From Branchiostoma floridae (taxonomy: Eukaryota > Chordata > Leptocardii > Amphioxiformes > Branchiostomatidae): 64,000 bases of DNA. Below, piece after piece: positions 11,407 through 62,382 of this stretch. The position numbers and the translations under genes are program-made. The notes beneath the pieces were generated by a model. The model ran no database searches. It was not told the origin of the DNA and worked only from the letters and a program-made list of their open reading frames with translations. The stretch lies in assembly GCF_000003815.2 (NCBI RefSeq), contig NC_049991.1, positions 11,968,907 through 12,032,906 of the forward strand, in the 5' to 3' direction. Position 1 is the first letter of the stretch, and every line of letters starts with the position of its first letter.

Positions 11407-11851
11407 TTATACTGATGAGGTACATAATCAATCTGAAACCTTTGTAATGTGGCAAATGCTGATGCGAATTTCATGATTGCGACATCATAATGGACACAGA
11501 GTATGCAGATTAAGGCATGCGTTTCATAGCCAACGACAAAATAACTTGTAGTAAATTCATAAGGTCGTCGAAATGGCATACCTTGAGGGATTTTCGTGTT
11601 TCTATCACTCCATGGAATATCCGATGTTATAGTGTAGAAAAAATCCCACATATCACTACGCCTAACGTCGCAGATGGGATAATAATACTTTTGATACTTA
11701 ATAGAGCCTACTAAGAAGAAACTGTTACATTTCTGAATATATATATATATATATAACGGCCGTTACATGTATATGGTGAGATGTCATTATCAACACTTCA
11801 ATAGTTGAATAGACTTCTTCCTCTGCGGTACGAAGACCCATAATAGGCCCA

Positions 11852-12208
11852 ATCTATACACAGTTTTTACCGATATCGGTGGATGTGTCGGGAGGGATCT
11901 GGAACGCTGGCCGCGGGACACCCGTGGCGCTTGCAGTCATAAACAGCTATATAGCCTAATGAGCCCGCGTTGTATGTTAATGAGCCTTCCCGAAGTCGGG
12001 ACACATCTACACACGCGCGGAAGCTGTCGGGGACCCCTGCTAAGCTATCGGGGACCCCTGCTAAGCTTTCGTACGAATGGTCCGGACCTTTCGGGAGAAA
12101 TTTTCCCGATATCGTAATGGCGATATAGCAGTTCCATCTAGACGATGAAAAAAAGCTGTCGGCGAATGGTTGTAGGCTCGCCGATATCGGGAAAAACTGT
12201 GTGTAGAT
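11852..12208. mobile_element. MITE forming the 3' end of the RdRP gene
   Basis: Terminal inverted repeats of about 30 bases, roughly 27 matching: ATCTATACACAGTTTTTACC at the left end and its near mirror GGGAAAAACTGTGTGTAGAT at the right. Both run into CCGATATCGG. The right-hand repeat begins exactly where the RdRP coding sequence leaves its conserved-looking part. The element therefore appears to supply the last 23 codons and the stop. No clear target duplication was resolved. Confidence 0.65.
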
Positions 12209-15200
12209 CGTGCAGACGCTCCATGTATGACTGTACACGTCTGATTGAGTCCATTGTTCCATAGGCGTACAGTTGTCCCCGTGCTGGCCCCCTCACACCC
12301 GTCAGGCGTCGGACCTGTACCTCTGCGCCGGTCTCCAGCTCAATTGACTCCTGAACCTGTGCGCGAAATAAACATGAGTACCAAAGAAGTAGCCTGGGTA
12401 CCATCCGGAGTCCGGACAGTAGTTCGTACGAACTAGTATGTTCGCCTATGTGACTGTATACAATGTATAATAAACGTCGGAAAACGATGAATGATGATGA
12501 AACGTCGGAGCGAACTACTACTAGGATGGTACCCAGGCTACCAACGAAAATCCTCACAATCTCACAACCCGCGATCTTAGCGCAGAATGAAGTCTCTTAC
12601 GTCGGCACCCCGTCTGTCAGTCGAACTGGGTACGGAAAGTCTACCGACGCAAGAGGCTCCGAGTGAGTTGGGCTTATTCGAAATACAAATGGCATCTACA
12701 CGATTCTCTACTGAGCTGGAACTTGCATACCTTAGTCAGCCTGTCCTTGACGCCATTTCTCCACACGTGCGGAGGTATCTGTGCCACAAATTCGTCCTTG
12801 GCGTGTACGGTCTCGGCGTGCACAACCTCTATGATGTCCCCTGTTTGAGACAGCATGTGGTACGTCCACAGTGCCTTTCGCTGGATGTTCCGTCTGCTAG
12901 CCTCCCCCAAGACCACGTGCGCACCTCCCAGCATCACACTGGCAGTCGACTCCTTAAACTCGTGGGAACTGATGTACTGGAAGAATTCGACCAAGAGTTC
13001 ACCCAAGCTACAGCCGTTTTCAAACGAATATTCTACGATGGTTTTCACCGAGACAGTTTCGCTGGTAAGACTTAGCCACTCTTTCGTCGCTCCAGTGGGA
13101 GCTTCTCTTAAGTCGACCATGAAACCGGCTTTGACTGCATATGACAGCATGTTGAAGACTAAGTCTGCGCTGTGTACATGTGTCAGCAGGTGCTCGTGCA
13201 TCCACTTACGCAAGAAAGCAACCAAAGGGAGGACGTTAGCGTAACGGCCTACATACATCTGGACTACCGGCAGAAGTGTCCCTTGCTTGTCCACAAAGAA
13301 TTTGTTCGGAGCCCGTAAGGTCGCGATGGTGAATTCGGTCGTGGAATAGTAGTCGTTTGCCAGTTGGTGTGTGATATTGTCGATCACTGGACACTCCGAA
13401 AAGGCAGTTCTAGCAGTCGTTGCTGTCTTTAAGTTTAAGATGCCTAGTATGTCACCAATAACCCACGGAAAGCTGAGTAGTTTTGCGTCTGGGTCGGAGT
13501 AGGTAACAGTGTACCACGCGGAGGCTTTCTTCAAAACATGGGGGTGATCCAATTCGACAGACTCTTCTCCTCCAAACTCTTCAAAGAAATCTTGACGCGT
13601 CCTTTTCCGCAGATCCTCGATACGGACTTTTGCAACCCTCTCGATCTCGTACCGTTCGTATCTGTCGTCCATGTGCTTGTGCAGCTTGACGATACAGCCG
13701 GAGACTGCCTCTGATTCGGTCTCAATCCCGTACTGTGCCATCAATGACCGCAATTGGTCATTGTATCTGTCTCTACTCCGCCTGGCCTTTTTAACATAAC
13801 TAACGTGCTCGCCTATAACCAAGCCGTAATCAGGATGTACCTGTTCAACAGTTCCCTTCCGCTCTACTTGTGTACAGACATTTTCGATCATCTGACACTC
13901 CCTATACATCTTACCCAGAACTCTCTCTGACCGCCTTGTGGTCTTGTCTCTTTTTCCCATGAAGTCAGGATATTCAAGTGGCCGCTCTGTCTTGTCTAAG
14001 TCTGGACACACGCCTGTCTTTGGAAAATCCACAGCGTCGGAGTGTTTTACCGCCAACCGTTGACACACATCAGAAAAGATTCCCATCGGTTCTGTGTCTG
14101 CGAAAACCAGGTGTGCGTTTGCAATGAGGCCCAATCTGTCATTCTTTATATAATCCACGATGAAATCGATGAGGTGTTTGATTGTGACGTTAGGAACCTC
14201 TCTCTTGGTAGGCGACCTGAAATGCATAGGCTGCTCATTCGGCCCGTTGAATATCAGATCAGGTAACCAGGTAACGAAGAAGTCATCTCCGTCTAGATCC
14301 CCTCCCGTCATCTCGTTTGGATGCGGCCGCGGTCCTTTGGCGGGAAAGACGATGACGTCCACCATATGATATAGTGCGGGGACGTCAATAGCCTGTAACT
14401 TACGAACATCGCCTGGGTGTAAGCACGGGGTCCGTGTCACCACCACATCACCTTCCAACACGCGGACTTTGCCGTCCTGGTTCGCAATGTCCTCGGTGTA
14501 CTGGACAAAGACCTGCCCATATTCCAACGTGCCCGTCTCGTCCAGAACACCTAACATGATGCGGCCATATTCTGGTGGGATCCCTATCCGGGCTCTCCTT
14601 CTTATTTCTCCTGTTATGTAACAAGAAAGCAAATTGAATCACCAGGCATGATTCTTGCTAAAAGAAGTTGGCTGCTAAAACAAACAAACAAACAAACAGA
14701 CGAACACATATAAATCTCTTCCTTTATCATAATCTATGGGCATTACATACTACATCAGTGTACGCACCTACTGAACTCTTGTAAATTTTCTGCAGCATAC
14801 TGCGGAAGAACGGCTCTGTGGTGAGCTGGACTCCCATCTTCAGCAGCCGCCTGTACGGCAGTCCCTTCATCTGTGCCCGCTGACACAAGGCTTCAGCCGC
14901 GCTCGTTTCCAGCAGAAACATATCAGCAAGTTCGAACAGCCTTTCCTGCTGGAGTTGTTGGAAAACTATGTCAGGAACACCAAGCTGAGAGAGAATCGTG
15001 ATGACTTGCCTGTTCAGAAACAGCCGGCCTGTAAGGGTAAAAATGCCGCATTATTGTCCACTCAACATTTTGTAGTTATCTACCGGAAGACCATATGCAG
15101 AACAGAAGTTTCTACAGTAGAAATGGCTACCGGTTAGAAAACACAGCAATAACAACTTTTATCATACCTGGGTGACTGGTTGTACAGATCTCAATGACGT

Positions 15201-18200
15201 CGTGTAGTGACCAGAATTTGTTCATGCTACTACGATACTGCATGATCTCCCCCTGTAGGGTAGGATCGACAGCCAGCATCCCTTTCACACCTGCATAGCG
15301 AATCTGATAGGCTGATGGAACCTTCTGGCTGTCACCTGTTTTGCTGCTGACCTGATGGATGGAGGAGGACGAAGAAGAACGCTTTTTCGTTAGCTAGTAG
15401 AGCAATGTTACTTTGCTACGGCCTGTATATTTTACGGTCTTTTAGCCAAGCACACTAGGTGTCCCCTACACTTCTCGATAAATGTGTTGGCTTCTCACTA
15501 CGTGCAAATCATTGTTTGACGCTCGAGGATTATGCCTGAAGCTTCGCCATACACGGGGCTGTCGGCTTTACGTCACAATCCGAAATGACGAAGGCAATCC
15601 TTTACAACATGTCCGAGCTGGGACCGACCCTAGACATTGCTAGAATAGAACTCCTACAGGCCAAGAAACGGAGTTGCGTTAGCGCTTGCGCCACGGGGAC
15701 ATCACACATGGGACCGTTATAAGATTCATGCAAATGTAGCTGATATTGCCGATGGGTTACAGATTTGGCGTTTTCAAGATGGCGGACGATGATGGTTACA
15801 ATTTTGATGAACAGTGGGCAATGGACCCAGCTTGTCTGCAGAATACAACAAACCTTTCTGGCCAGGTCTTTGGAAATTTTCCCGATCCCATCCGAAAAGC
15901 AGTACGGTTTACGGTTGACTGGGTCGTAACCACCCGTGATGTCGGAGATCTCGACGGCGTTGTTCCCGACATTTGCGACTGTCGGCTCTGTCGTGGAGAA
16001 ACACTGACCCATCCTGGCGAGATAAGTTGCTGGACATCTGGAAAAGAAACAACAAAGAAACTAATGCTGTTCATGTAGTGTATTCTTGTGTTAATGCATC
16101 CGTGTATAATTTCTAGTTCTTGACATAATTTAAAAGTATACCATACCATACTTGATTGTTATGTTATACACTGAATTTGGAAAAAGGGCAACATTAGGCA
16201 CTGATTATAAAATGTAAAAGCACTCAAAAAGGGCACAGTAGAGAATTAAATATACTTTTCAGGAAGATGCCAGCAGTTCGGAGCTCCCTTTTCCTAGCTT
16301 CTTGTGAAACATCAAAAAGACTACCTAGAGCCACGTACCTACAGCCAGAGAAGTCCCCCATTTCAGCCCTGATAGATTCCGCTGTGTTCTTTCCGTCATC
16401 CGAGAAAAACCAAACTCCGTGTTGGCGGAGTTGACTGTTGGATGCCGCAAGAAACCTGTAATACCTGTGAAAAAGGAATGGCAAAACTTGAAATCCTTGA
16501 AGGATACTGTTACACCGTTTCAAGACATTATTGTAATATGTAGTAATGTTGTCAATTCGAGTCCAATAAGTATGCATTATACTAGCGTTAGTAGCAGTAC
16601 GTGCATGCATCGACTGATGATAGCCTGACTAAAATCGCACACCTAGCGGCCGGTCTTACAGTTGCCACCACCTAGAAGGGGGTCATTAACCACAGCCAAA
16701 GAGAGATTGTTTAAACACAGGCTACGACTGATGATATCTAGATATAAATATATTTTCTTTCTACATTCAGAAGTTAGTTTCGATATTAACAACTAGTGAC
16801 AATTAAATCTACTATTATTGAACTACACTGTAGTGATACATACCTCTCTCCGACCCTGACCCCAGTTTGAAGCACGTTCCTCACACGTGCAAATATATCC
16901 TCTTCCTCCAATCCCGTCGCTATTCCACCCTGAAGCTTCTGGAACCCTTCGTCAAGGAAGGAAACCCTGAGGAAGAACTCCTCACCATAGTCACGCAGCA
17001 TCCTGTGGTTGAATAGTAGTAAAAGAACGAATGGGAAACTTCGCGTATACTTTTGAGGCAAAATGTGAAAATGCGCTTTGCACAAAATGTAGAATGTAGC
17101 GACTGCGCAAATCATCATCATATGGTTCCGTGCCAGTACTGCAGCCAGTCCACGGCCTTCTCATTAGCTTCTAGCAGGTTAGTCCCAGTTAGAGATAAGC
17201 TTAATACGCAGCCCTGTGTAATGTGTCCCATAGTTTGGATAGGGTGACCGAAACGACTCATAAGTCTTTTTAAGTCTTGGCCAAACCGTCGTCTTTTGAT
17301 TAACAGAATGTATTAAAAAAACGAGCGATATCGATTTACTTTGACAAACCTAAATCGTTAAGCTCACCTGTTTTCAAACATGATTTCAGGTTGCAGGAAG
17401 AGGAGCGTGGTAGGTGTGACGATGACGCGACGCACGTAACGGAGGGTGGCCGGGAGGGACATCTCCTGACGACCCAGCTGTATGTCACTGGCGGACAGCA
17501 GTGCGTCAAATTCCCTCGATATATCCACAAACCTGTTCGGTTACAAAAAAAATCATCTTATATCTCAGGCGTATACGAAAATAAACGGCTAATACAGTTT
17601 GTAAAACTTAACGGCTGTCGACCATTGGTAGTTGATGATATATAATACAGTATGGAATTTGTAAATAATGATTGGCATTAGGAAAGTGAGATAATGAAAG
17701 AGTCCCTAACCTGTTCTGGTCCATGATGTGGACGATTCTGTAAAGTACATCGGTAACGACATCTTCCCCCTCTTCATTTTCCAGCTTCTCCAGCTTGAGA
17801 CATAGCTCTGACTCCATCTGATCTCGTGCCGAGAAACCTCTGGATAAGAGAGCATGCATCGCGTACACACTGGCAAATCCATGCAACCTAGGCTCGGTAG
17901 GGGGCGCTGATTTTACCGTCTCTTCCTTTGTGAACAGGTAGTGAGCTTTGAAGCCGCACCTCCCACACAGCCGACTGAGAATCTGATGTGTGATGTCGTT
18001 CCAGTGGGATTCATTGGAGATAACGAGCTTCAAGCAGGAGGAGTTACCGATGATGTCAGCAGGACAACCCAAGAAGCTTGTCCTGCGGGTCCAAACCGTC
18101 TTCTCGCCCACCCACTCCAACGACGCAACAGGTGCTCTGCTAACCTAAGAATATACAGACACTCTTGTTTTACAAAAACAAAAGATTTAACCACTGTATG

Positions 18201-19024
18201 CAAGACAACTTAAAGGTTTATTGTAATATCACCACTGCATATATACTTTATTAGCAAAACATTGATACAGCATTTGCACTTAACTGCAGTTCCGCAAGGT
18301 TTCGCTCTACTAAAGTATACATGTATAGCCGATGGTAACAATGATGCAGTTCTGAATGACCTAATGATTTGAATGTTTAAAATCTTCTTGTACCCACCTT
18401 GACCCTGTGCTTTAAGAACAGGTACACTGATGTTTCGGTCTTCTTCTCCGTCACTAAGATGTATTTCTCCAAGTCGTTATATTTGATATTCATCCTGTGT
18501 ACATACTCACGAAACGTATTAACTCTAAAGTACACGGTAAGTTCCTTCCTATCGTGCTCAAACGACAACTGATTTTCACACACTTGATTTGCTTCATAGT
18601 GGCTTACAAAAGTGCTTCTTCCACGGAATGCACCAAGAGAGAAACTTTTGTAAATGACATCGTGTGTTGCAGCCCGTCTCCCCTTGTCTGAAAGTACCTT
18701 TCCAGAGTTTGTTGTCAGCCATGGATAACCCTCGTCTCCTGTGATTTCGGGTGGATCTGTGCACCATGCCTGTCTCAGTTTGGCGTAGAATTGTTCAGCA
18801 TCTGAGTAAGACGTACCCACTGGCTCTAAAGTAAAGTCGATGTGTGCTGTTTCCCCGTGGTACGTGGTCGGTGGTTTGTTGACAACTTTGAAGGCATTGA
18901 TGTTAGCATTTTTCCTGACGTGGGATAACACTCGACGTTGGATCTGGAGACTAAAAGCGTCCATAGAAACTGTGGCTTTGATTGAAACTGGCTGTCCGTG
19001 TTGAAATTTGCCCGCTCGCCACAT
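12138..19024 (-). CDS. Cellular RNA-dependent RNA polymerase
   Basis: This is a complete model with ten coding exons: 18398-19024, 17711-18144, 17368-17532, 16844-17002, 16339-16464, 15854-16037, 15168-15351, 14768-15028, 12731-14610 and 12138-12356. All junctions are GT/AG and all phases agree, giving 1,412 codons with no break. Conserved blocks appear in order: VIVTPTTLLFLQPEIMFENR, RMLRDYGEEFFLRVSFLDE, CFSDGIGKIS, PSAYQIRYAGVKGMLAVDP, GVLDETGTLEYGQVFVQ, TPCLHPGDVRKLQAIDVP and GGDLDGDDFFVTW. The catalytic DLDGD (residues 818-822) lies at 14285-14299. Cellular RdRPs copy RNA into double strands that feed RNA silencing in plants, fungi and nematodes. Lancelets are among the few chordates that keep them. 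An in-frame TGA five codons upstream fixes the start. If the last intron is retained, the frame ends at 12674 instead. Confidence 0.93.
12389..12541. mobile_element. Small hairpin MITE in the last RdRP intron
   Basis: Perfect 18-base inverted ends GTAGCCTGGGTACCATCC and GGATGGTACCCAGGCTAC, followed by further partial symmetry (AGTAGTTCG), enclose about 150 bases. The element lies wholly within intron 12357-12730. The hairpin at 47438-47527 has related ends (AGCCTGGATACCATACCC). Confidence 0.75.
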
Positions 19025-20075: not shown

Positions 20076-23000
20076 ATGCCACGGCAAATTAAAATCGACA
20101 AGTTTTTCAAGCCGACGCCAAGTCCTGCCCCGAAACCAACCTTATCACTGTTGGGGGCGGGAGGCGAAGCTACCCCGGGTCCGGCGAGTTCAAGACGCAG
20201 ATTAAGCCTGCCCGGCTCCATGGGATCAAGTACAACAACAGAGACCAACAATGGCAGTAACGCACCCCCAACCTCAGTCCCTTCGCCGAATGCCGGGACC
20301 GACTCTTCGCTCCGGCCCCAAGTAATCACCCCGCTGATGCCGGTGGGTACAACTTCCCACCCTCGGGTAGGGTCACGATCAGCCTCGAAGATGAAACGCC
20401 GCAAGCCCGGCTCACCGAGAGGGCTCGGCTCGTCTTCACCGTGGCGTAAACGGCAGCACGAAGACTCGACGGAAGATGGCCGCGATAATATTTTGCAGGT
20501 GACAGTTAACGTTTGTGGTGTTTTTTGGCTGCACCGCAAAAGGGGCTTACCATATGTGTGTGTGTGTATGTGTGCGTGCGTGTGTGTATTGTGTATGTGT
20601 GTGTGTATTGTGTATGTGTGCGTGCGTGAGTGTGTGTATTGTGTATGTGTATGTGCGTGCATGTGTGTGTGTGTTTGCATGCTTGCATGTGTATGTGTGC
20701 ATGTGTGTGTATTGTGTATGTGTGCGTGCGTGCGTGTGTGTATTGTGTATGTATGTGTGCGTGCGTGCGTGTGTGTATTGTGTATGTATGTGTGCGTGCG
20801 TGCGTGTGTGTATTGTGTATGTGTGCTGTTATTTTAGCCAACTCCTTGATTGCTGCCGTAATCTGGTTGAAGTTCTTAACCACTATTGATATAAATGTCT
20901 GCCTTCCTACTAGGTAACTGGTGATAAAATAAGCAAGAATGTTGAAAAGGAACTATCAACTTTGAACCAGATGCCTGAAAAAAAGGAAAAGCAAATTACG
21001 GGTATGTTTGCTTTTATGTTTGTTGTAATTAATCATTTGATTCAATTGTAATTAATCATTTGATTCAATCTGTATTCTGTAGCCTGGGCAGCTCAATCCA
21101 GTGACAATTTAATGTGCTAACGTTACCATTCAGTTGGGTGCTGGAAAGTCAGTTCTATGTACAGGAAGTTATAAACAAGTAAATGAATAATCAATGATTG
21201 AATGAATGAAATCTGCTGTCCATAATTGCATCCTTTTCGGGTCATGAAGCCAGAGCATATCTTAATACAGTGGAATTCGCTTATTTGGATAGCTCATTTG
21301 TCAGCGCATTTTATCCAATAGTCCGAAGTATCCAACAGTCCGAAGTTGGGCCACTAACGCCCCGAAGGGAGCCGGGAGGGGGGCAAATATAGGATTACTA
21401 CTACGCAAGACACAAACACCACACATACCGAATACGGAACTTCATTTACAAAACTTTTGAATCAGACATTCGTTCATCTAGAGCAGTAGTAGTCTAAGCA
21501 GTAGTTATTAATAACCAGGTTTTGAACGAATGGAAGTCGTCAACTGTTTGAATCTACAACATCACTAAATAGCCAGCAAAAGATCGAACAGATTCCAGTT
21601 ACAAGCTTTACATAATTATACGTTCCGATATTATACAATTTACGTGCGCTGATAAATCTAATAAAGATTTTTAAGTCGGTGGCTAAATGAACATGTAGAA
21701 AAATACGCTTGACTCGCACTGCCGAGAGCATGAACCACAACAAAGGCAAACACAACTCCGCTTGTATGCCGGAAAAAATTATGTTGATTTCGTAATTTTG
21801 AGCAAAATGACGGTACGTATTGGAGAGATAAACTCTTCACCTTCTTATTTACATCTTGTGTCCACAAGTTACGCTGAAATTTTAAACTCGACGCCGTCTT
21901 TCGCGGTGGAAGACGGAAAATTTTACTTTCAAAACATTTAAAATGGCGTCGTAGCGTGGCTTGAGATATCCCGCCATTCAATGCGGCTGATTGCGAAATC
22001 ACAGTTCATTGACCTGTTGCGTTACGTGCGCTGTAAAAATCTACGTAGTGCAGCCGAAATCAGCTCAATAATGAGACAGTGGATATGTAAAAACACATTT
22101 TGTAGGGTAAACCAAGTTTAGACGTTGTCTGAAGGGGAAATATGAACTCAAAAGCGTGTTGACGTTCCCATTACGTTCGCCCATCATACCTTGCGGCAAC
22201 CTATCAAAATGGCGCCTAACCAATGTTCGCACGCTACCGCAGCAGCATTGGCAAGATTTTCGGTGGAATCTACCTATCTTACGGTCCTTTTCATGATTAA
22301 ATGCCTTCGGACATACAGTTGTTGGTTAATTTTGGCCTCATTTTGTAAGTTTTAGCGTACATTTTCCCATTTTCTTCGCTATAATTTGACGTAATTCTAT
22401 CCAAAAACCCGAAGTTTGAGACCGGGGGTTATCCAATTCTGCGAAGTCTCATACAATAGAATGAATGGCAAATGGTTTGGGATTTCGCAATTCTATGCAA
22501 TTACCGGAATTATCCGAAAAGGCGTAATACGAATAATTGGAATCCACTATTATTAAAAAAATTAGCACGAAGTTATTTTGAATAGTAGCCTATCCTATTC
22601 AAGTATCCCTCCGCTTCAGTGTAGAAGACATCTCACATGTTAGGTATGGGGATTGATATCGGGTGTTAGTGGGACGTCCTCCACTGACGGAGCAAAACTT
22701 CTCAGCAACGAGAAATACTAAATGGCCGGGGCGGGTGTTTTTTTTGGTTTTTTTTTAAACTTTCCCCCCATCTCCTTCCCTTCACCAACCCATTTAGTAA
22801 TACCGCTCACGTAACTCTTACTCTTCATGCCATTGCTTCCTTCTCGCTTTCCTGCGCTCGGCATTCACTTGGACTGTCTGGATGGATTTCCTTTGTTCTG
22901 TGCATATTATACCCTGTATACACGTGGCAGGCATCACCTGTTTCCCTTAATCTTTCTCACCTGTTCTTGATTAGATTTGTTAACTTTCTACACCTGCGCT

Positions 23001-26000
23001 TGGGATTACTTGATTAGAATAGTAGCCTATCCTAATCAAGTATCCCTCCGCTTCAGTGTAGAAGACATCTCACATGTTAGGTATGGGGATTGATATCGGG
23101 TGTTAGTGGGACGTGGACGATTGGGGTGTTCGGAATTACCGGTCCGGTCCGGACCGCGGAATTACCGGTCCGGTCTGGTTTGGGGGCGGAAAAACCGGTC
23201 CGACCTGTTCTGCGTGTAGCTACGCCCCCTGGCAGAATTGAACAGAATTGCATGTTGTATGGTGTGTTCCTGTATATCACAACATGGAGCGCACTGATTG
23301 GATGTATGGGGGTCTGCATGCTAATGTCACTGTTTACGTCAGATCGATCGGCGACGGTTAACATATACATTGCACTGGTGCACCCAATCCCAATTACTGC
23401 CCCCAAACCTCATTTAATCTCCCAACCCTTATTTCACCAACCTCCTCCAAACCTCAGTTCCTTTTCTCCAAACCTCCAACTCCATTCAGAACATTTCACA
23501 TCCTTTGATTTTATTACGACACTCATTCCAGTTACATAACTTAGTTATCTTTTCATCACATTTCCACACAGTGGGGGCTTATTATAAAACTCATTCTTTG
23601 AACAACATCTTGAAAAGATCTTTATCCGGAAGTGGACCCCTACGTAGTGCTAGTGGGTCCCCCTTCCCTAATTCGCTGTGTATCTATTCTGGCTGACGTT
23701 TACTTGGTTCCAACAAAGATAGAAATAGCCAGAAGTAAAGCAGAGGAGAGGGAGACGCCACCAGCACCCCGGGGTCCACAGGCTCAGAATGACCAGGGTA
23801 GCCCAAGGTACCGGCACGCCCCCTCAGGGCCAGAAAAGAGAAATAGGTGGAGGCAAAAGACTTCCATATCTACCCAATTCCGGGCAAGAAACCGCCCATA
23901 TCCATTACACAACTCCGGGCCATATACTGCCCATATATATTACACATTCCGGGCCATATAGCGCCCATATCCATTACACAATTCCGGGCCTTATACTGCC
24001 CATATACATTACACAACTCCGGGCCATATACCGCCCATGCATTACATAATTCCGGGCCATAATCCGCCCATGTCCATTACACAATTCCGGGCCATATACC
24101 GCCCATATCCATTACACAAGTCCGGGCTATATATATACAATTCCAGGCAACAAACCTGCCATTTCCACGTAAGACAATTCCGGACAACAAACTGCGGCCG
24201 CCCGCTAAAATCTAGAAAAAACTCCAAACATCATACGTACAGCGAACTTAAAACAACAAGAACCTTTCCACTGAAATTCCAGTGAATTTGTGGTGCCGGT
24301 GTGGCCTCGGCGGGGTGGAATGGGTGGTGTAGTCGGGCTTCGGGACACGTTCGTAGATGAAACGCCGCTTCTATCTCGCTTTCCTGCGCTCGGCATTCAC
24401 TTGGACTGTCTGGATGGATTTCCTTTGTTCTGTGCATATTATACCCTGTATACACGTGGCAGGCATCACCTGTTTCCCTTAATCTTTCTCACCTGTTCTT
24501 GATTAGATTTGTTAACTTTCTACACCTGCGCTTGGGATTACTTGATTAGAATAACTTAATTTTTTCTGTGCATGTACAGTGTAACTTGAATGGTAACAGT
24601 TATTTATTTTATGATTTATCTGTTACTCTTCAGGAAAGGTTAAGTTTCGGCTGAAGGTCGCCCTGACAGAGACAGAGCTGAACGAAGATTTTCTCATAAC
24701 AGCGCCGGGAAATCAGCCCATCATAGAGGCTCTGCAGGGAGACACAAGACTTGACAAGATCAAGAAGAAGCTTCCAAGGATTTATCTATATCCATACGGT
24801 GAGAACAACCCGATCAGGGGGGTACCGAACATAGGCAGCCCCTGCAGTCTGATAGAAGGTGGTAGATTTGAGGCAAGGTTAGGAAAAGTTCAAAACCCTA
24901 ACAAAAATAGTGAGGATGAGCTTGGGCTCAGTGGTAGGCATAAGATCTATCTTGATGCTAGAGATCGACGTTATAAGGCCAAGTGGCTTACCAAAGAACA
25001 TCCGAACACGTTTGATTCCCCCATTTTGGTTGATTGCCTTCCCAGTGATACACTTCTATTGGCACTGCTTAGAGATGAAAGGATTAAAAGGGATTGGGTG
25101 AGGTATGCTGAACTAATTTGCAAAGATAGTACTGGGGAGATTAACACTAAACTCACCGATGAGTGTCGCTCTCATGATGGGAAGACCTTTGCATGTCGAG
25201 TGCATCCTAAAACATTACAAGTTAGTGATAAAGAATGGGGAGAAGTGATTGCACAACTAGACAACAGTCCTGATGTAGCTATTTCAGGTACTAGGGGGGA
25301 CCTAGATCTACAGGCAGAAATAGCCAAATCAGGCGAGGGCAGTGAGACGGAGAGTCTGCAGACAGAATGGTTGGTTATCCAACATAGAAGCAAGAGTCAA
25401 GTTGCTGAGCTCTTGAAGTTGGACTTAGAGGAGAAAGATTCACCTATGTCAGAAGGGAAACGTAAGAAAAAATTGGATCGGTTTGTGAAGCCATATAGGC
25501 ATGATTTTTGCAGTGCCAATCCGGGCATCCGTATTTCATTGATGGAGAAATGTTGTGAGTTGGGACGTTCTGTTGGGGTTCTTAAGAAAAATGACCATCG
25601 CTATGGTACTTGCCTCCGACTTGGCTCCAAGTTTGTATTGACTAATAGGCATGTAACAGAAGAAATGGCAAAAGTGGGGGGTGAAAGTTTTGTTGAATTC
25701 AACTATAAATCTTTAAATGACCCAGACTTGTTCGAATTCAAAGTGAAACGTGTTGTGTGTACCAGTCAAAATAATGAGTCAGATCATAGTCTTCTGGAGC
25801 TGGACGTTCCAGATGACCAGTCTGAAAGGCTGCCTCCAGGGCTCGGACATTTGATAGCTTCATCCAGCAAGGCAAAACTAGTGACAATCATTGGGCACCC
25901 AGGAGGTAGGCCCCAAGAAGCAAATATTTGCTGTCCCATAGTAGGTTCAGATCATAAGAATATTAAAGCAATTGCGGTTTATTTGAACTTCAATCCCGAG

Positions 26001-26270
26001 CCCACAGGGGGAGCAAATTACCGCATGGTGGATGACCCTGGAAGAGTCACCTATAGGTCAGTGTTTGGCCCGGGTTCCTCCGGGTCACCAGGGTTTGATG
26101 AGGAGGGGAAACTCATAGTTATGCACACTTGTGGCTACCCGCTGTATAAAGGGTCCTCAAGTTTGGTAGAGCAAGGTGTAAAGATGACAGCCATAAGGGA
26201 CGACCTGGAACAATATGATCATGGTCTCTCAGCAGAGTTATTCCCAACAGAGAGTATGGAAACTGATTGA
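20076..26270 (+). CDS. FAM111-like PIP-box serine protease
   Basis: Three coding exons (20076-20498, 20914-21001 and 24634-26270) join in phase into 715 codons. Residues 4-11 are QIKIDKFF, an exact PCNA-interacting PIP box (QxxIxxFF), followed by a proline/serine-rich disordered stretch with basic runs. A middle region (GKVKFRLKVALTETEL...) fits the FAM111 ubiquitin-like segments. The C-terminal trypsin fold has His in LTNRHV (H510), Asp in SDHSLLELD (D554) and Ser in GSSGSPG (S653). PIP box, middle domain and C-terminal protease in that order is the FAM111A architecture (human A 611, B about 734 residues). FAM111A acts in the nucleus against protein obstacles at replication forks and restricts certain DNA virus mutants. 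The function here is inferred from that family. Possible AATAAA signals lie near 26370 and at 27216-27221. Confidence 0.85.
20554..20826 (+). repeat. GT/GTGC-rich microsatellite
   Basis: About 270 bases of TGTG runs with interspersed TGCGTGCG and TATTGTGTA units in the first intron of the FAM111-like gene. Long open frames rich in Cys/Val on one strand and His/Thr on the other are produced by the repeat and are not genes. Confidence 0.95.
21268..22549. mobile_element. pogo-like non-autonomous DNA transposon
   Basis: The left end CAGTGGAATTCGCTTATTTGG follows a TA and resembles pogo/Tigger termini (CAG...AATTCGCTTA). The right end reads, inverted, TAGTGGATTCCAATTATTCG. The interior repeats phrases such as GTCCGAAGT near both ends. 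It is about 1.28 kb with no transposase frame. A second TA duplication is not clear. It sits in intron 2 of the FAM111-like gene. Confidence 0.55.
23118..23410. mobile_element. Possible hAT-like fragment rich in ACCGGTCCGG
   Basis: ATTGGGGTGTTCGG at the left and GTGCACCCAATCC at the right are roughly inverted. The left part repeats ACCGGTCCGG motifs like those in the hAT-type element at 47596-48028. It lies inside the longer spacer of the composite repeat. Confidence 0.35.
23875..24200 (+). repeat. Minisatellite, about 35-base unit
   Basis: About seven good copies plus degenerate flanking copies of a unit reading roughly TTCCGGGCCATATACCGCCC followed by ATATCCATTACACAA. Copies differ by point changes and small deletions. 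Open frames through it are repeat artefacts. Confidence 0.95.
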
Positions 26271-33800: not shown

Positions 33801-36542
33801 ATCAAGTAATGACTGTATTTGCAATGTTTGCTGATGAATATCAGCCACAAAAGTTCCCTTCACACTCAGAAGAAGGGTTTACGGAAAAGCCTGGGCCCAG
33901 CAGGCTAGCCAGCAGGCTAGCCAGGCCACCCTTTTTGGGCCCCAAGGCTATGGATGGGGTTTGGGCCCATAATGGATTTTTTAAAACCTAAAACTGGGTA
34001 ACCGATATTTCCAGTGCATGCAATGTGCATTGGACAGAAGGCAACAGTTTGCTCATATTCATGGAGCATTGGGGTTGGTTTACAACAATGAACAATCAAT
34101 GAACATCCACAGGAACTCCCAGGTTTAGTACATTTACTTTTCCTTTGACTATACTGCCAGTCATTCCTACAATACTTATAGTGGCTATCCCCCTCACCAA
34201 GGAGGTACAAGTTGACACATATAAACACATAACATACATCCATTCCTGCATCCATGCTCACTGACACTTGATGGTGGAGACATCTGTTTCAAATTTGATG
34301 TTTTGGCAAACAGCCTCCACCCTAGGGTCCCAAGTGTTGCCTTGGGTTACCACTGACCCAGTTTTTTTACAAGGAAATTTCATCCAAACCATCCTTTCTG
34401 TAGGCCTGACTGGAAGAATAACCAAAGAGAATACATTGTGTTCATATGTAAAATAACTGTGGATGCTGGTAGTTCATTGCTGCCTCCCCCTGTGACCAAA
34501 TGTGAAAAACAGTTACCTTCTGTACAATGCCCCCAGCAGCAGCAGTAGTTATCGTTACCCTGTTAGCTTTGAAAAATCCATTAGGTGCCAAACCCCCATT
34601 CATAGCCTTGGGGCCCCAAAAGGGGCTCAGAAAAGTCTGCTGGCTAGCCTGCTGGGCCCAGGCTTTTCCGTAAACCCTCAGAAGAATTGTTCCGGGTGGT
34701 TATGTTCCCTCTCCCAGGAGACAGCAGGGCGGTGCTGTGTAAGACCAAACCTGACTCCTCGCTAGAAGTGGTCCAGCTGAGTAACGACCACGTGATCGAC
34801 AATCCCGACGAGACCCTGCGCCTGTCGCAGCTGGGGCTGAACATGGAACTCATCCGCAGCCAGGGCAGTCGCCTTGGCAACCAGGACTGCACCCGCACGC
34901 TGGGAAATTACCATCTCAAGGGGGGGTACAAGGACTTTGACATCCTCAGGTAAAATTCATGGCATCTGGTACGAATGTATCAAGGAACCAAAGTCTTTAT
35001 GTGTGCGTCTAAACATGTACTTCAGCCTGCCAACTTTGGATAAGTGTAAGACTTTTGAGCTGCAGGTATCCTTCTTTGAAACCATGTTGAAGCTATTTCA
35101 TAATATGCACACAATTTTGACATGTCTCGAATGTGGAATGTTGTGAAATGCTTTGCCTGATGAATTGTGTATGTCAACAATGTTTCTTAATGCAACAAAT
35201 ATTTTTTTTTGGACTAGACTGAAAAATTTTAAGGTCTAAACTACTCATATCATACTAAGTGTGATTATTGTGAATCATTGAGACATTCAGACAATTTTCT
35301 TTTGTAGCTTCATAGTTTTCCTTTAGATGTCCATTTCTGATTTCTAATACTTCATGTTGGATCTGTTACTCCAGTGTTGCCACAGCAGAACCAGTGATAG
35401 CAGAGCCAGACGTGGTGGGAGGGATCACAGTGGACGAGTCCTGTAGTTTCCTCATGCTGTTTTCTGATGGTGAGGAACATCTTTTCATTAACCAGTTTCT
35501 CAATGGTACATACTGTTGGTTCAGCAATATTAACCTAAACATATACTGTAAGCATTGGAGTCAACATCTTTGGAGACACAGAAAGTTATAAAATCAGTCC
35601 ATTTATTCCTTGCTTTGGGGTGAAATGATGTTTCTGAGCAGCACAAGTCATTGTGCTACATTATCATTGCCTTGTCACAACCTAATGTCAATACTATTAC
35701 CATGCTAAAGTCTGTCATGAATGGCAATTTTACGTTTGTATATCAAGTTATTTTGAGGAAGAATCTGACTTAACAACTTGTTCCATTTGACAGGCTTGTA
35801 TAAGTCCCTGGAGAAGTGTACTGGTACGGACAGTGTGAACAGAGACCTGGCCTACATGGTGTCCGAGGAGCTGGGGAACCAGTCCACCCTGAACAGTGTG
35901 GCCCAGGCCGTGGTGGACCGCGTCGTGAGACTTCACCACGACACCTTCATGCGGGGAGGGGATCACGCGCGCCTGTGTGCCAAGAGACCTGACATCATGC
36001 TTATTGTGAGGAACTTCAACCATCCGTTCCCCAACTCTTTAACAAGTCCCACACAAGGAGGGGTGTACAACCCCGTCTCTGTTCCATACAGACCACATAA
36101 GAATGAAGGACCTCCCCCCAAACTTATCATGCCCCCCAAACAGCCCGTTCCTACAAACCTGCATGAAACCTCACCAACCACTACAGTTGTAGCTCCAGCG
36201 ACCAATCAGAGCCCAGTTGTGGCACAACAGTCCCCCTCGGCCACCATGAGCGAGGTAGCTGACACAAACGTCACTCAAACTACAGGGACGACCAGTAGTG
36301 ATACGGAGAGAAGCGGCCCGGAGCTGAGGCTATTCCGCCGCCGGCAGCGATCTTACCAGCCGTTAACACTGGACGACGACGGTTTGGTAGAGCCGTATGT
36401 GGACTTCTCTGATTTTCACCAGAGGTGGAATGAATTCATGAAGACACAGAAGGAACACATAAGTAGCCTACAGGAGGAAAAGGAGCCCAGTCTTAAGGAA
36501 GAGCCTGACAAAGAACTGGAGGAGGAGGAGGCACAACGTTGA
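30810..36542 (+). CDS. TAB1: TAK1-binding protein 1, PP2C fold
   Basis: Eight coding exons (30810-30875, 31415-31551, 32226-32379, 32800-32886, 33349-33487, 34718-34949, 35375-35469 and 35794-36542) join in phase into 552 codons (human 504). TAB1 binds and activates the kinase TAK1 (MAP3K7) in TGF-beta, IL-1 and stress signalling. The N-terminal PP2C-like fold runs to about residue 375: SWTDDLPVCPLSGVGS, GVFDGHDGNRASDF, AVVALILNNKLYVANAGDSR, RLSQLGL, then SVAQAVVDRVVRLHHDTF. A Pro/Thr/Ser-rich linker follows. The end holds VEPYVDFSDFHQRW, the TAK1-binding element, and then an acidic tail longer than in human. Unlike human TAB1, which is catalytically dead, this copy keeps Asp at D80 (FDGH), GDSR at 195-198, D303 (SDG) and D370. 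An AATAAA lies near 36992. Confidence 0.97.
33588..33672. repeat. Diverged relative of the SLC39A11 intronic repeat
   Basis: TTTGACCAATGAGAG through ATTTTGACGGAGGTGGG parallels 4418-4510 with substitutions and small indels. Confidence 0.45.
33875..34677. mobile_element. Mutator-like MITE with 9-bp target duplication
   Basis: Inverted ends GGGTTTACGGAAAAGCCTGG and its mirror CCAGGCTTTTCCGTAAACCC extend inward through GGCCCAGCAGGCTAGCC. TCAGAAGAA flanks both sides (33866-33874 and 34678-34686), a 9-base duplication as made by Mutator-type elements. The element is 803 bases with no transposase frame. It lies in TAB1 intron 5 and ends about 40 bases before exon 6. Confidence 0.9.
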
Positions 36543-53115: not shown

Positions 53116-53205
53116 TGAAGAGTCTGAGACAGGGATAGCTGGACTAGTAGTTGGGAGGATCAATTCCACAATACAGCAGGACTATTCCCCTTGCTGATAT
53201 CCTCC

Positions 53206-54141
53206 ATGGGCAAGTGCTTGTCGCACTGTGTGGACTCCAACTCCACCGAGTCCCAGAGGAGCCAACAGTCCCACAATGGGAAACACCGCACCCCCACCCC
53301 ACCTAGCTACTACAGCTCTGTGCAGAAGGGCCAGTCGGTCAGGTCCGCCCCATCGGACGGCTCTCACGAGGAATACTACACAAATGGTTCCTCCCACAAG
53401 GAGATGAGGACTTCTGAAAAAAAGGCCCCCATGCATCCAGCCAAGCTGCCAACCATCTCATCCATTCAGAGGACCAGCAATAACAACCTGAAAACCATCT
53501 CCATCTCCCCTCCGGAGTACTCGGAGACCAGGATTCGTAAACTGTTCGACAAGTACAAGGACGAGCACGAGGACTGCATCCTGGCGGAGGGGGTGGAGCG
53601 GTTCTGTCAGGACCTCGGCGTGGATCCCGCTGAGTTTATCGTGCTGGCGCTAGCGTGGAAGTTTAACGCGGGAACCATGTGCAAGTTCACCAGGGAGGAG
53701 TTCGAGGGGGGCTGCAGGGCGCTGAAGGTGGACAGCATCAAGGGCATCCAGGCGTCCTTCCCGAGCCTCCTTCAGGAAGTCAAAGATGAAACCACCTTCA
53801 AGGACTTGTACAGATGGACATTCCAGTTCGGCCTAGACTCAGACCAGGGCCAGAGGTCCCTGCCCATAGACATGGCGCTGCCGCTGTGGCACCTGGTGTT
53901 CTCCCACAGACAGCCTCCGCTGCTGCATCGCTGGTTCGAATTCCTGAAGGACAGTCAGGTGCGGGGGATCTCGCGCGACACGTGGAACATGTACTTGAAC
54001 TTTGTGGAGGTCGTTGGCGAGGACTTGAGTACTTACGACGACACGGAAGCGTGGCCGAGTCTGTTCGATGACTTTGTTGATCACGAGCACCAGAGGGAAA
54101 AACAAGCCAAGGAGAGGGGAATGCAGGAGGATGAGGTGTAG
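53206..54141 (+). CDS. DCUN1D3: DCN1-like protein 3
   Basis: 311 codons in a single coding exon (human 304). MGKCLSHC at the start fits N-myristoylation plus nearby cysteines, as in DCUN1D3, which is membrane-anchored. Residues to about 105 are a polar, disordered stretch. The PONY/DCUN1 domain follows: IRKLFDKYKDEHEDCILAEG, VERFCQDLGVDPAEF, LALAWKFNAGTMCKFTREEF, FKDLYRWTFQFGLDSDQGQR, SLPIDMALPLWHLVFSHRQP, RGISRDTWNMYLNF and EAWPSLFDDFVDHE. These proteins bind cullins and UBC12 and promote (or, for DCUN1D3, also sequester and restrain) cullin neddylation. The ATG at 53206 was chosen for the myristoylation signal; the in-frame codons before it lack an ATG. A splice acceptor lies at 53101. The 3' end of the transcript is uncertain. 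Confidence 0.97.
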   Translation: MGKCLSHCVDSNSTESQRSQQSHNGKHRTPTPPSYYSSVQKGQSVRSAPSDGSHEEYYTNGSSHKEMRTSEKKAPMHPAKLPTISSIQRTSNNNLKTISISPPEYSETRIRKLFDKYKDEHEDCILAEGVERFCQDLGVDPAEFIVLALAWKFNAGTMCKFTREEFEGGCRALKVDSIKGIQASFPSLLQEVKDETTFKDLYRWTFQFGLDSDQGQRSLPIDMALPLWHLVFSHRQPPLLHRWFEFLKDSQVRGISRDTWNMYLNFVEVVGEDLSTYDDTEAWPSLFDDFVDHEHQREKQAKERGMQEDEV

Positions 54142-59753: not shown

Positions 59754-62382
59754 CTACAAACGTCTGAGTGCTCTCTTTTTCTCTTTCTTCTTTTTCTCTG
59801 CTGCATTTTTGTCTCCTGCATGCTTTTTGGCCATGGGCCCTTCACTGGTAGATTGCGTTCCTGAGGTAGAGGGACAATTTGTTTCTTCGTTTTTTGTGGG
59901 CGCAGTCTTTGTCGTGGGCTTGGCGTGAATTTCTGTCATCATTCGCGCTCTTTCAGAGTAGTTGTCGTACTGTTCCAAGAGCAGCTTCCCGGCTTCTTCG
60001 TTCAGGGCGGATTCAGGGTTTGGATAAATCAGAAGACACTTGATGGTAAGGAGGATGTGTTTGAGGCCGAGATCGGCTTTCCAGTCTTTCTTCAGCGTGT
60101 TCACACAAATCTCTCCATTCTTGGCAACGTTGGGGTGGAAAATCTTGGTCAAGAAGAATCCCTTGGGAGGAGTCTGGGGAAAGTCCTTCCCAAGGGACAA
60201 TTTAATTTTGAACTGGCCACCTTCATATGGAGTTCCCCCTGAAAATAACATACACACAGTGGGTTGAGTAATGCAATACCTTGTTGAAGTGTAAACTAAA
60301 TAATAAAAAGTTAACCCATTAGGAACAGTTTTCCACAGCCATACAGTGAATATTGAAACAAAAAAATGCTATTTTTTTGGGGGGGGGGGGGAATTACAGA
60401 AGGTACTAGTACCTGTTCTGTTAGTGTTAGTCTGTTTACTGATGACCTGGATACATGGTTTGTCACAAGATCATATTATCAGACAAGACCACTAACACAC
60501 TGAAAATACAGAACAATGTACAGCATATAGTCTGTGTAACGTAAACTCCACTATCTGGAGCTTGTAGCCCCCTCCCTGCGCGGCAATGTAGGACGGGCTT
60601 AAGAAGCGTGATTAAATCAGACTATACAGCATAGTCTTGTCATGAAGCTACTGAAAAGCAAGGCAGCAGATCTTACCCGGGCCCTCGATAGTGGCCTGTA
60701 CATCTGTGATGTCCTGCTCATTAGGAAACACCTTCACCCCCTCAGGCGGGTGGTTAGCGAGGTCAAGAACTTCCTTTGCCACCTGCCGGATAATCTGAGG
60801 TGACAGGTTCTCCACGTTGGAACTCTGCAACGGACACAGGGAAATAGGAAGGTGAGTGAGAGCATGAAGAATCAGTACACGTTAGGGGTGGGTCACTCAC
60901 TCACTAGGGGTGGATCGTAGGGGCTCCACGACATCCACCAGCGGTGACTGATGTCGGTACTGGTACGGAAAATTCAGGTACAGATACAGTCCAGAGCATT
61001 GGGTCCAGGTATGGACCTGAACCTGATTATCTGTGAAAACTTGTGAATGGGCGGTACTAAAAAAAAGGTTCATTTCACCACAAAGCGTTCTGTTTGGTGG
61101 AGTATCCAACGTCCGTTGGCGTTTTAAAATCCTATATTCATGTAAACCACACTAACTGTCTCTGTTTAAGACCAAGTTTGACTGTAGAAACTTGGTAGAG
61201 TCTCTGAAATGGCCATCGCCTCTACTACTCTCGTCTACTTTGCTTCGAACCTGTACGCCTCAAACATGTTAACGCCAGCCGGTATATTCATTTTTTGAAT
61301 TGGTCCTATTTTTAAAAGTTTGGCCGGCAGTGCTTATCTAAGGACCTCGGGAAGACCTTACTTGGTAGCCGAACAGAATTCTCTGCAGGCCCTGGCAAAA
61401 AGTCTGGTTTTCCAGGCAGGGTATGTCTACCCCTACCTGGCTTCACCACAAAATATGCACTCTTTCCCATATCGCAAATATAAGTCTCCTCAAACAGTTT
61501 GGTGCTTTCTACAGGGATGAGTCTAATTTATGGTAAACTCATAGACCCGACTGATGGTAGCACCTGAGTTTAACCAAAAATCTAATGGAAAAGATCTTTG
61601 GTGTACTGTGGTTCCAGGAAACAATTTACTCCACAGATAACTACATCTTTTCAAATTCTTCTGAAAACTGTCGGGCATACCCTGGTGGCCATCCGGGATC
61701 GGGCAGCTAGGACCTACCCTTTATCGATAACTCCTTCGGGCTTAAACTCCCCCAGAGTGCTAATGTGAGATTGTCGGGCTGACTGCCTTGGCTCCCCGAA
61801 CAAAACTTGCTAACAAACCTCGCTAGCTACCCGGTCCTGTCTGGCTCCCAGGGTATTACTCGAGAGTTCAGTTGAGATATTTCAGCTATAGATTACAAAT
61901 AATGTAGCCGAAAACGTGACTAAAAAGTCACCACAGTGAGTGAGTAGTACTATAGACACTGTTGGCGGATAGATACAAAACTGGACTCTTGCCAGGAATC
62001 TTCTTCTTGGCCCGATTTTTCAAAGTCAAGCCCTCCCCCTTTCAAATCCCAACGTCTGCAAACATCCCGTAACCGTTGGGTAAAGTCAACCCATTCCCTC
62101 GAAAGCCGCACGATTCGATTAAGTATCGTTACAATCTGGATGTACCAAGTATACTGTAGATACAGTTCCTAGTCATAATATTAAGACAACGTGGAAGATA
62201 ACGAAAATAACGGCAACATTTCTGACATCTTTAGACATCCGTTAGCTTGGCGACTACCGGGGTCCTCCATGTTTTGATTCGTTGCCTGCCCAGACGGCGA
62301 CCGTTTCAGGCCAAAACCGTCACATTTTAAAACACCAGAAGTCAAAAGGAAGGTACAAAGATAACATACATACCCCGGACAT
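59754..62382 (-). CDS. UBE2S: Ubiquitin-conjugating enzyme E2 S
   Basis: Three coding exons (62374-62382, 60677-60824 and 59754-60238) join in phase into 213 codons (human 222). The first exon codes only for Met-Ser-Gly before a GTATGT donor. It joins [19 protein letters not shown], matching the UBE2S start. The UBC fold follows with [27 protein letters not shown] and the active cysteine C97 in [13 protein letters not shown], then [17 protein letters not shown]. The tail has [10 protein letters not shown], a lysine-rich run, and the C-terminal KKRALRRL that docks the enzyme on the APC/C. UBE2S extends Lys11-linked ubiquitin chains on APC/C substrates in mitosis. The first exon is the least certain part because it is so short. 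Confidence 0.95.
60885..61135. mobile_element. Partial hAT-type MITE, reverse orientation
   Basis: TTAGGGGTGGGT, repeated GGTCCAGGTATGGACCTG motifs, TTTCACCACAAAG and a final AAAATCCTATATTC match, in reverse, the interior of the element at 47596-48028. No complete pair of ends was found. It lies in the first UBE2S intron. Confidence 0.55.

Follow-up and report, generated by a model that had tools for sequence, protein, structure and literature searches.

The 64,000-nucleotide stretch of Branchiostoma floridae DNA analysed here (the window) carries an intact gene for a cellular RNA-dependent RNA polymerase (RdRP), a type of enzyme that serves RNA silencing in plants and worms. We consider it likely that this gene encodes a functional enzyme, probably limited to certain tissues or to conditions of challenge, whose double-stranded RNA would feed either Dicer and Argonaute or an innate sensor. 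The family as such is known and has been rediscovered here independently, since RdRPs have been published for three lancelets: those of B. floridae were reported in 2008 (PMC2395250), six genes of B. lanceolatum were published in 2019 (PMC6396948) and six genes, one of them dispensable, are described for B. belcheri (PMC12373286). The first-pass annotation of the window had framed the gene as a surprise, which is overdone for B. floridae RdRPs that have been in print since that first report. What lancelet RdRPs do is a genuine question, the same one that is already posed in print. The details added here are small and concern the tail of the RdRP, which lies in an inverted-repeat element, and a FAM111-like gene that is arranged head to head with it.

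The RdRP gene lies on the minus strand, from 19024 down to 12138, and consists of ten exons with 1,412 sense codons and a stop. Exon 1 (18398..19024) starts with the ATG and contains the beginning of the PH_met_RdRP match, exon 2 (17711..18144) is supported by the splice model and Pfam, and exons 3 to 8 (17368..17532, 16844..17002, 16339..16464, 15854..16037, 15168..15351 and 14768..15028) are supported by the splice model and an alignment with RDR2. Exon 9 (12731..14610), identified by Pfam and the RDR2 alignment, encodes the second half of the catalytic domain, which includes the GGDLDGD motif, and also DUF7752. Exon 10 with the stop (12138..12356) aligns with paralogs over its codons 1-47, this earlier part being backed by two paralogs on the same contig (C13), and its last 25 codons are located inside the inverted-repeat element. 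When the exons were rebuilt from the splice sites and joined, 0 internal stops were found in 1,412 codons, and nine of nine introns, 139-502 nt in length, have GT/AG borders. Hence, the coordinates, exon number, codon number and uninterrupted frame given by the first-pass annotation are all exact, and the strand, which it did not give, is minus. The alternative frames of the spliced sequence contain 51 and 67 stops, and for random sequence of the same composition the chance of such an open frame has a log10 P of about -31. Upstream of the ATG there is an in-frame TGA, with five codons between the two. Six of the nine junctions (at residues 409, 462, 504, 565, 626 and 713) fall within the alignment with RDR2 chain 7roz, which is gap-free at all six. 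A spliced-alignment script again gave these ten exons, as far as the stop; as the query was the same RdRP protein, this checks the script and is no independent test of the gene.

By its sequence, the product is a polymerase of the cellular and not of the viral type. The Pfam family PF05183 (RdRP) matches residues 392-952 over model positions 1-582 of 582, with an E value of 1.1e-174 and a score of 582.8 bits against a cut-off of 23.8. PF25359 (PH_met_RdRP, Metazoan RdRP associated PH-like domain) matches residues 144-275 (E 7.8e-10, 39.1 bits against a cut-off of 27) and spans profile positions 53-211 of 220, the first quarter of the profile being without a match, and PF24934 (DUF7752) likewise exceeds its cut-off (E 9.9e-11). 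In residues 1-143, 276-391 and 953-1165, no Pfam family reached its cut-off. Cellular RdRPs synthesise a complementary strand on single-stranded RNA and so produce double-stranded RNA; their active site is built of two double-psi beta-barrels, and the three aspartates of DLDGD hold a metal ion there. The catalytic block of the window protein reads HPNEMTGGDLDGDDFF; the codons for HPNExxGGDLDGD are found at 14285..14323 (minus strand), where the back-translated motif has its sole match in the window, with 0 expected. GGDLDGD, residues 816-822, aligns with RDR2 and with QDE-1 (GGDYDGD). Among the sequences of solved structures, RDR2 chains (PDB 7roz, 7eu0, 7w82), which we take to be of plant origin, match residues 386-1119 with a best E of 6e-127 and 428 bits, and QDE-1 (PDB 2j7n, 5fsw), presumably from Neurospora, matches with an E of 3.5e-20 and 75 bits. 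None of the seven solved sequences among the matches listed is named as an animal protein. In sequence, the solved structure nearest to the lancelet RdRP is thus plant RDR2, and the lancelet protein is probably of the alpha type (a clade name from an older nomenclature cited in PMC6396948), to which we assume RDR2 to belong. The catalytic core is common to both, but the first 385 residues of the lancelet protein, where the metazoan PH-like domain is located, are unaligned, and 293 further residues including DUF7752 follow at the C-terminus past the alignment. QDE-1 has the active-site block in common with the lancelet protein and is more distant, because it scores only 75 bits and its best stretch covers about 120 residues. 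The presence of the major family motifs including the DLDGD core, claimed by the first-pass annotation, is borne out by the full-length PF05183 match and the RDR2 alignment. RNA-templated RNA synthesis by this protein is very likely as judged from its sequence, and we infer that it produces RNA in the animal.

A search of the 513-Mb assembly returned 26 exon-level RdRP matches (0/14 control genomes gave any), which group into six loci on four contigs (C13, C1, C8 and C4), the same number of loci as the six genes each described for B. lanceolatum and for B. belcheri. Five matches belong to the window gene (C13, 11,981,044-11,987,930, minus strand, ten-exon model), six and five to the other C13 loci, four to C1, three to C8 and three to C4. 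The spliced models of the two C13 paralogs run from 11,810,877 to 11,818,648 (plus strand, 162 kb from the window gene) and from 11,819,854 to 11,828,118 (minus strand, 153 kb from it), and the three loci lie within about 177 kb. The paralog models were obtained with a purpose-written spliced aligner that used the window RdRP protein as query and penalised stops, so that the lack of stops in the paralogs is partly by construction. The models are unreliable for the N-terminal exons in L009 and L010, for the very small final exons in L011 and L012 and for everything but the catalytic core in L013 (33 'exons'); counts were therefore limited to the columns of window residues 387-1100, with gapped columns excluded. 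Over this core, identity with the window RdRP amounts to 64.9% and 62.8% for the two other C13 loci, 48.4% and 47.9% for the C1 and C8 loci and 31.9% for the C4 locus. Read from the translations, DLDGD is present in six of six loci (SGSDLDGDMYF in L012), compared with an intact site in three of six predicted B. lanceolatum genes (PMC6396948), where the authors allow that truncations of the RdRP domain may come from a defective proteome prediction. The C4 model contains a P-loop NTPase-like sequence of the GPPGTGKT type after the polymerase core, although the end of this model is unreliable, and in this it resembles B. lanceolatum BL02069 with its AAA_12 domain (PMC6396948). The window protein scores 428 bits with RDR2 against 239 bits with the C4 paralog of its own genome, which in terms of sequence is consistent with an ancient split into two RdRP types as described by Pinzon et al. 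(PMC6396948). The C4 core itself is closer to RDR2 chains (177 and 136 bits) than to QDE-1 (65 bits), and bit scores alone thus do not place C4 in the gamma type.

After DUF7752, the C-termini of five loci have a conserved block in common (window residues 1270-1387) with an invariant TGA...V..R pattern. In the window protein this block has no match to a Pfam family above a cut-off, PF24642 (DUF7636) matches two of the five C-termini weakly (best E 0.00045), and a comparison of the C-terminus with PDB profiles gave no meaningful match (best E 0.085). By eye, the C-terminus had given the impression of a KH-like RNA-binding domain, but a Pfam search of the five C-termini up to an E of 10, in which the HMMER filters drop most matches above 0.1, gave no KH family. 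Beyond this block the window gene runs into an inverted-repeat element of 367 bp (11847..12213), which supplies its final 25 codons (1388-1412) together with the stop. The arms of 33 nt, at 11847-11879 and 12181-12213, are 88% complementary. The alignment of the window protein with the two C13 paralogs extends to about residue 1387, where one model stops and the other has a different tail; the tails of the C1 and C8 models were chosen by the aligner for likeness to the window tail and carry no information. A search for a target-site duplication of 4 to 10 bases near the arms was negative, the exact arm pattern had no copy in 20 fetched loci, and its two matches in the window are the arms from which it was written. 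The simplest reading of these sequences would be that a repeat, which may be a MITE, landed at the end of the RdRP gene and now encodes its last residues.

Replacement and silent changes were counted with a purpose-written Nei-Gojobori script over core residues 387-1100. Against the two C13 paralogs, the window gene has pN values of 0.235 and 0.247 and pS values of 0.760 and 0.785; between the window gene and each of the five paralogs the silent distance is too large to be corrected, the paralog-based ratio averages over a long time, and with silent sites saturated a recent relaxation in the window copy is bounded weakly. The younger C1/C8 pair has a dN of 0.084 and a dS of 0.67. At core sites that are identical in the other four alpha-like copies, private changes amount to 17/274 in the window copy and to 24/281 and 25/282 in its C13 neighbours, and where the C4 copy is identical as well, to 4/121 against 5/122 and 7/124; none of those in the window copy affects the three catalytic aspartates. 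Among the six loci 117 of 714 core columns are invariant, including D818, D820 and D822. On these counts, purifying selection has kept the window RdRP since its duplication and decay is unlikely. The first-pass annotation had argued that an intact gene implies selection and that a ratio near 1 would speak for decay; among paralogs of the same genome pN is far below pS and private changes are not raised, in agreement with the former. A recently silenced copy, with a frame that is open by chance only, is quite improbable. The tail derived from a repeat-like element might speak for it, and for very recent silencing, at a neutral divergence of 0.01, the probability of no new stop is still 0.26 when stops alone are considered; however, 1,412 codons are without stop or frameshift, at a divergence of 0.03 the probability of no new stop falls to about 0.017 and to far less with an assumed indel rate, and neither the number of private changes compared with the C13 neighbours nor the state of the catalytic aspartates fits such a copy. 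That the gene was acquired horizontally or from a virus is hardly credible. The plant protein as best solved match might speak for it, though none of the seven solved sequences listed is named as an animal protein. Against it, introns are found all along the gene, the protein has the metazoan RdRP-associated PH-like domain PF25359, five related loci occur on four contigs genome-wide, and Pinzon et al. conclude from a broad tree that the alpha and gamma clades descended vertically (PMC6396948). In collections of viruses, bacteria and archaea, the viral contigs gave no match to the exon-9 protein and 0 matches to the catalytic motif pattern, and in the genome contigs 19 stretches fitted the exon-9 protein pattern with 0 confirmed; as the scan finds close relatives only, these negatives say little.

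The proposed functional polymerase would copy single-stranded RNA into double-stranded RNA, in some tissues only or under challenge by a virus, a transposon or aberrant RNA, and its product would pass to Dicer and Argonaute or to an innate sensor in amounts that the published whole-body libraries could not reveal. The genome contains one Dicer_dimer match and 37 exon matches to the Piwi domain (35 above the cut-off), indicating that genes for Dicer and Argonaute/Piwi are available to take up such a product. Metazoan RdRPs have a patchy distribution, with convincing genes in 98 species in a survey of 538 predicted proteomes, and the only function that its authors accept for cellular organisms is the production of siRNAs or their precursors (PMC6396948). 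The small-RNA test that the first-pass annotation had asked for is already published for B. lanceolatum, and the siRNA search was negative: no secondary siRNA class was seen in six samples (stages or sexes) with four library types and 24 libraries, and antisense exon-junction reads reached 1.33 ppm against 94.2 ppm for sense reads (PMC6396948). An RdRP product is thus not demonstrated there, and the authors conclude that lancelet RdRPs take no part in RNAi and speculate that they have a different role (PMC6396948). Tick RdRP1 and RdRP3 (PMC10062562) and nematode RdRPs are likewise animal cellular RdRPs, likened here by description; small-RNA roles have been shown in both groups, with small RNAs of about 22 nt depending on RdRP1 and RdRP3 in tick cells (PMC10062562), whereas none was found so far for lancelets. 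In the accessible part of the open-access RdRP literature we found no demonstration of a step after polymerisation in a lancelet. Homology, the negative siRNA search in B. lanceolatum and the tick small RNAs together lead us to rate activity as high and to split the downstream use between conditional RNAi and other roles. That the role in lancelets is unsettled, as the first-pass annotation had noted, agrees with the lancelet literature (PMC6396948; PMC12373286).

It is a real, if lesser, possibility that an active RdRP acts outside RNAi, for example as a source of double-stranded RNA that is read by an innate sensor or enters another RNA-guided defence; this overlaps with the explanation that we prefer and differs in the downstream step. 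Two lancelet papers speculate on such a role (PMC6396948; PMC12373286). In line with it, B. lanceolatum transcribes its RdRP genes, two of them full-length with intact sites, yet no siRNA population was found in it (PMC6396948), 50% of B. belcheri individuals lack one of the six RdRP genes and defence genes are among the dispensable genes of this species (PMC12373286), and the RdRP adjoins a FAM111-like protease from a family with a link to antiviral defence (PMC9798293). However, the absence of siRNAs from unchallenged whole animals leaves room for RNAi that is confined to a cell type or arises on infection, ticks do produce small RNAs that depend on RdRPs (PMC10062562), and gene neighbourhood alone is a weak argument. 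More tentatively still, and rather unlikely in our view, the lancelet alpha-type RdRPs may be an old, maintained defence family whose RNA product serves outside siRNA amplification, with the FAM111-like neighbour co-regulated; on this reading the C13 RdRPs, clustered within about 177 kb and yet with silent sites saturated or nearly so, would be an old family that has been maintained, and a chordate would have a second, so far unrecognised use of a cellular RdRP. Returning to the preferred functional polymerase, an intact and constrained copy supports the notion that lancelet RdRPs do something and makes lancelets worth searching for a second function, an argument that is already in print.

The neighbouring gene (20076..26270, plus strand) encodes a FAM111-like serine protease of 715 aa in exons 20076-20498, 20914-21001 and 24634-26270 (including the stop), which join in phase. 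From the RdRP ATG to its ATG there are 1,051 bp, and judging from this head-to-head arrangement a common promoter is possible. The protease part matches FAM111A structures (E 8.9e-14) and also Pfam Trypsin_2. The genome contains at least 20 FAM111-like matches with E below 1e-9; four span most of the query, namely the query itself and sequences that are 72%, 60% and 44% identical, the remainder covering mainly the protease part, and the family thus looks expanded in this genome. The PCNA-binding PIP-box pattern is QxxIxxFF, and the N-terminus of the FAM111-like protein (20076-20498, plus strand), MPRQIKIDKFFKP, fits it. Related N-termini are found upstream of two FAM111-like paralogs, at L018 8732-8265 and L019 7630-8058; one reads MLRQITIDKFCQP (E 9e-28) and the other QPTIDKYCER (E 3e-10), and since both have C at the second aromatic position, the strict pattern does not apply there. 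Upstream of a third paralog that we examined no related N-terminus was matched. A review places the first PIP box within mammals and describes a B. belcheri FAM111-like protein without the two ubiquitin-like domains (PMC9798293); if the motif described here were functional, the origin of the PIP box would be pushed back before mammals. Two repetitive stretches lie in introns of the gene, at 20550-20830 and 23880-24140, one a long, imperfect tract rich in GT, the other an array whose imperfect units centre on CAATTCCGGGCCATATACCGCCCATATCCATTACA. Elsewhere in the window, an exon at 35769-36542 (plus strand), which by eye we take to be a TAB1-like C-terminal exon, has no Pfam match. A gene for a DCN1-like protein 3 is located at 53128-54141 (plus strand, E 2e-80) and a UBE2S-like gene at 59754-60368 (minus strand, E 3.4e-53).
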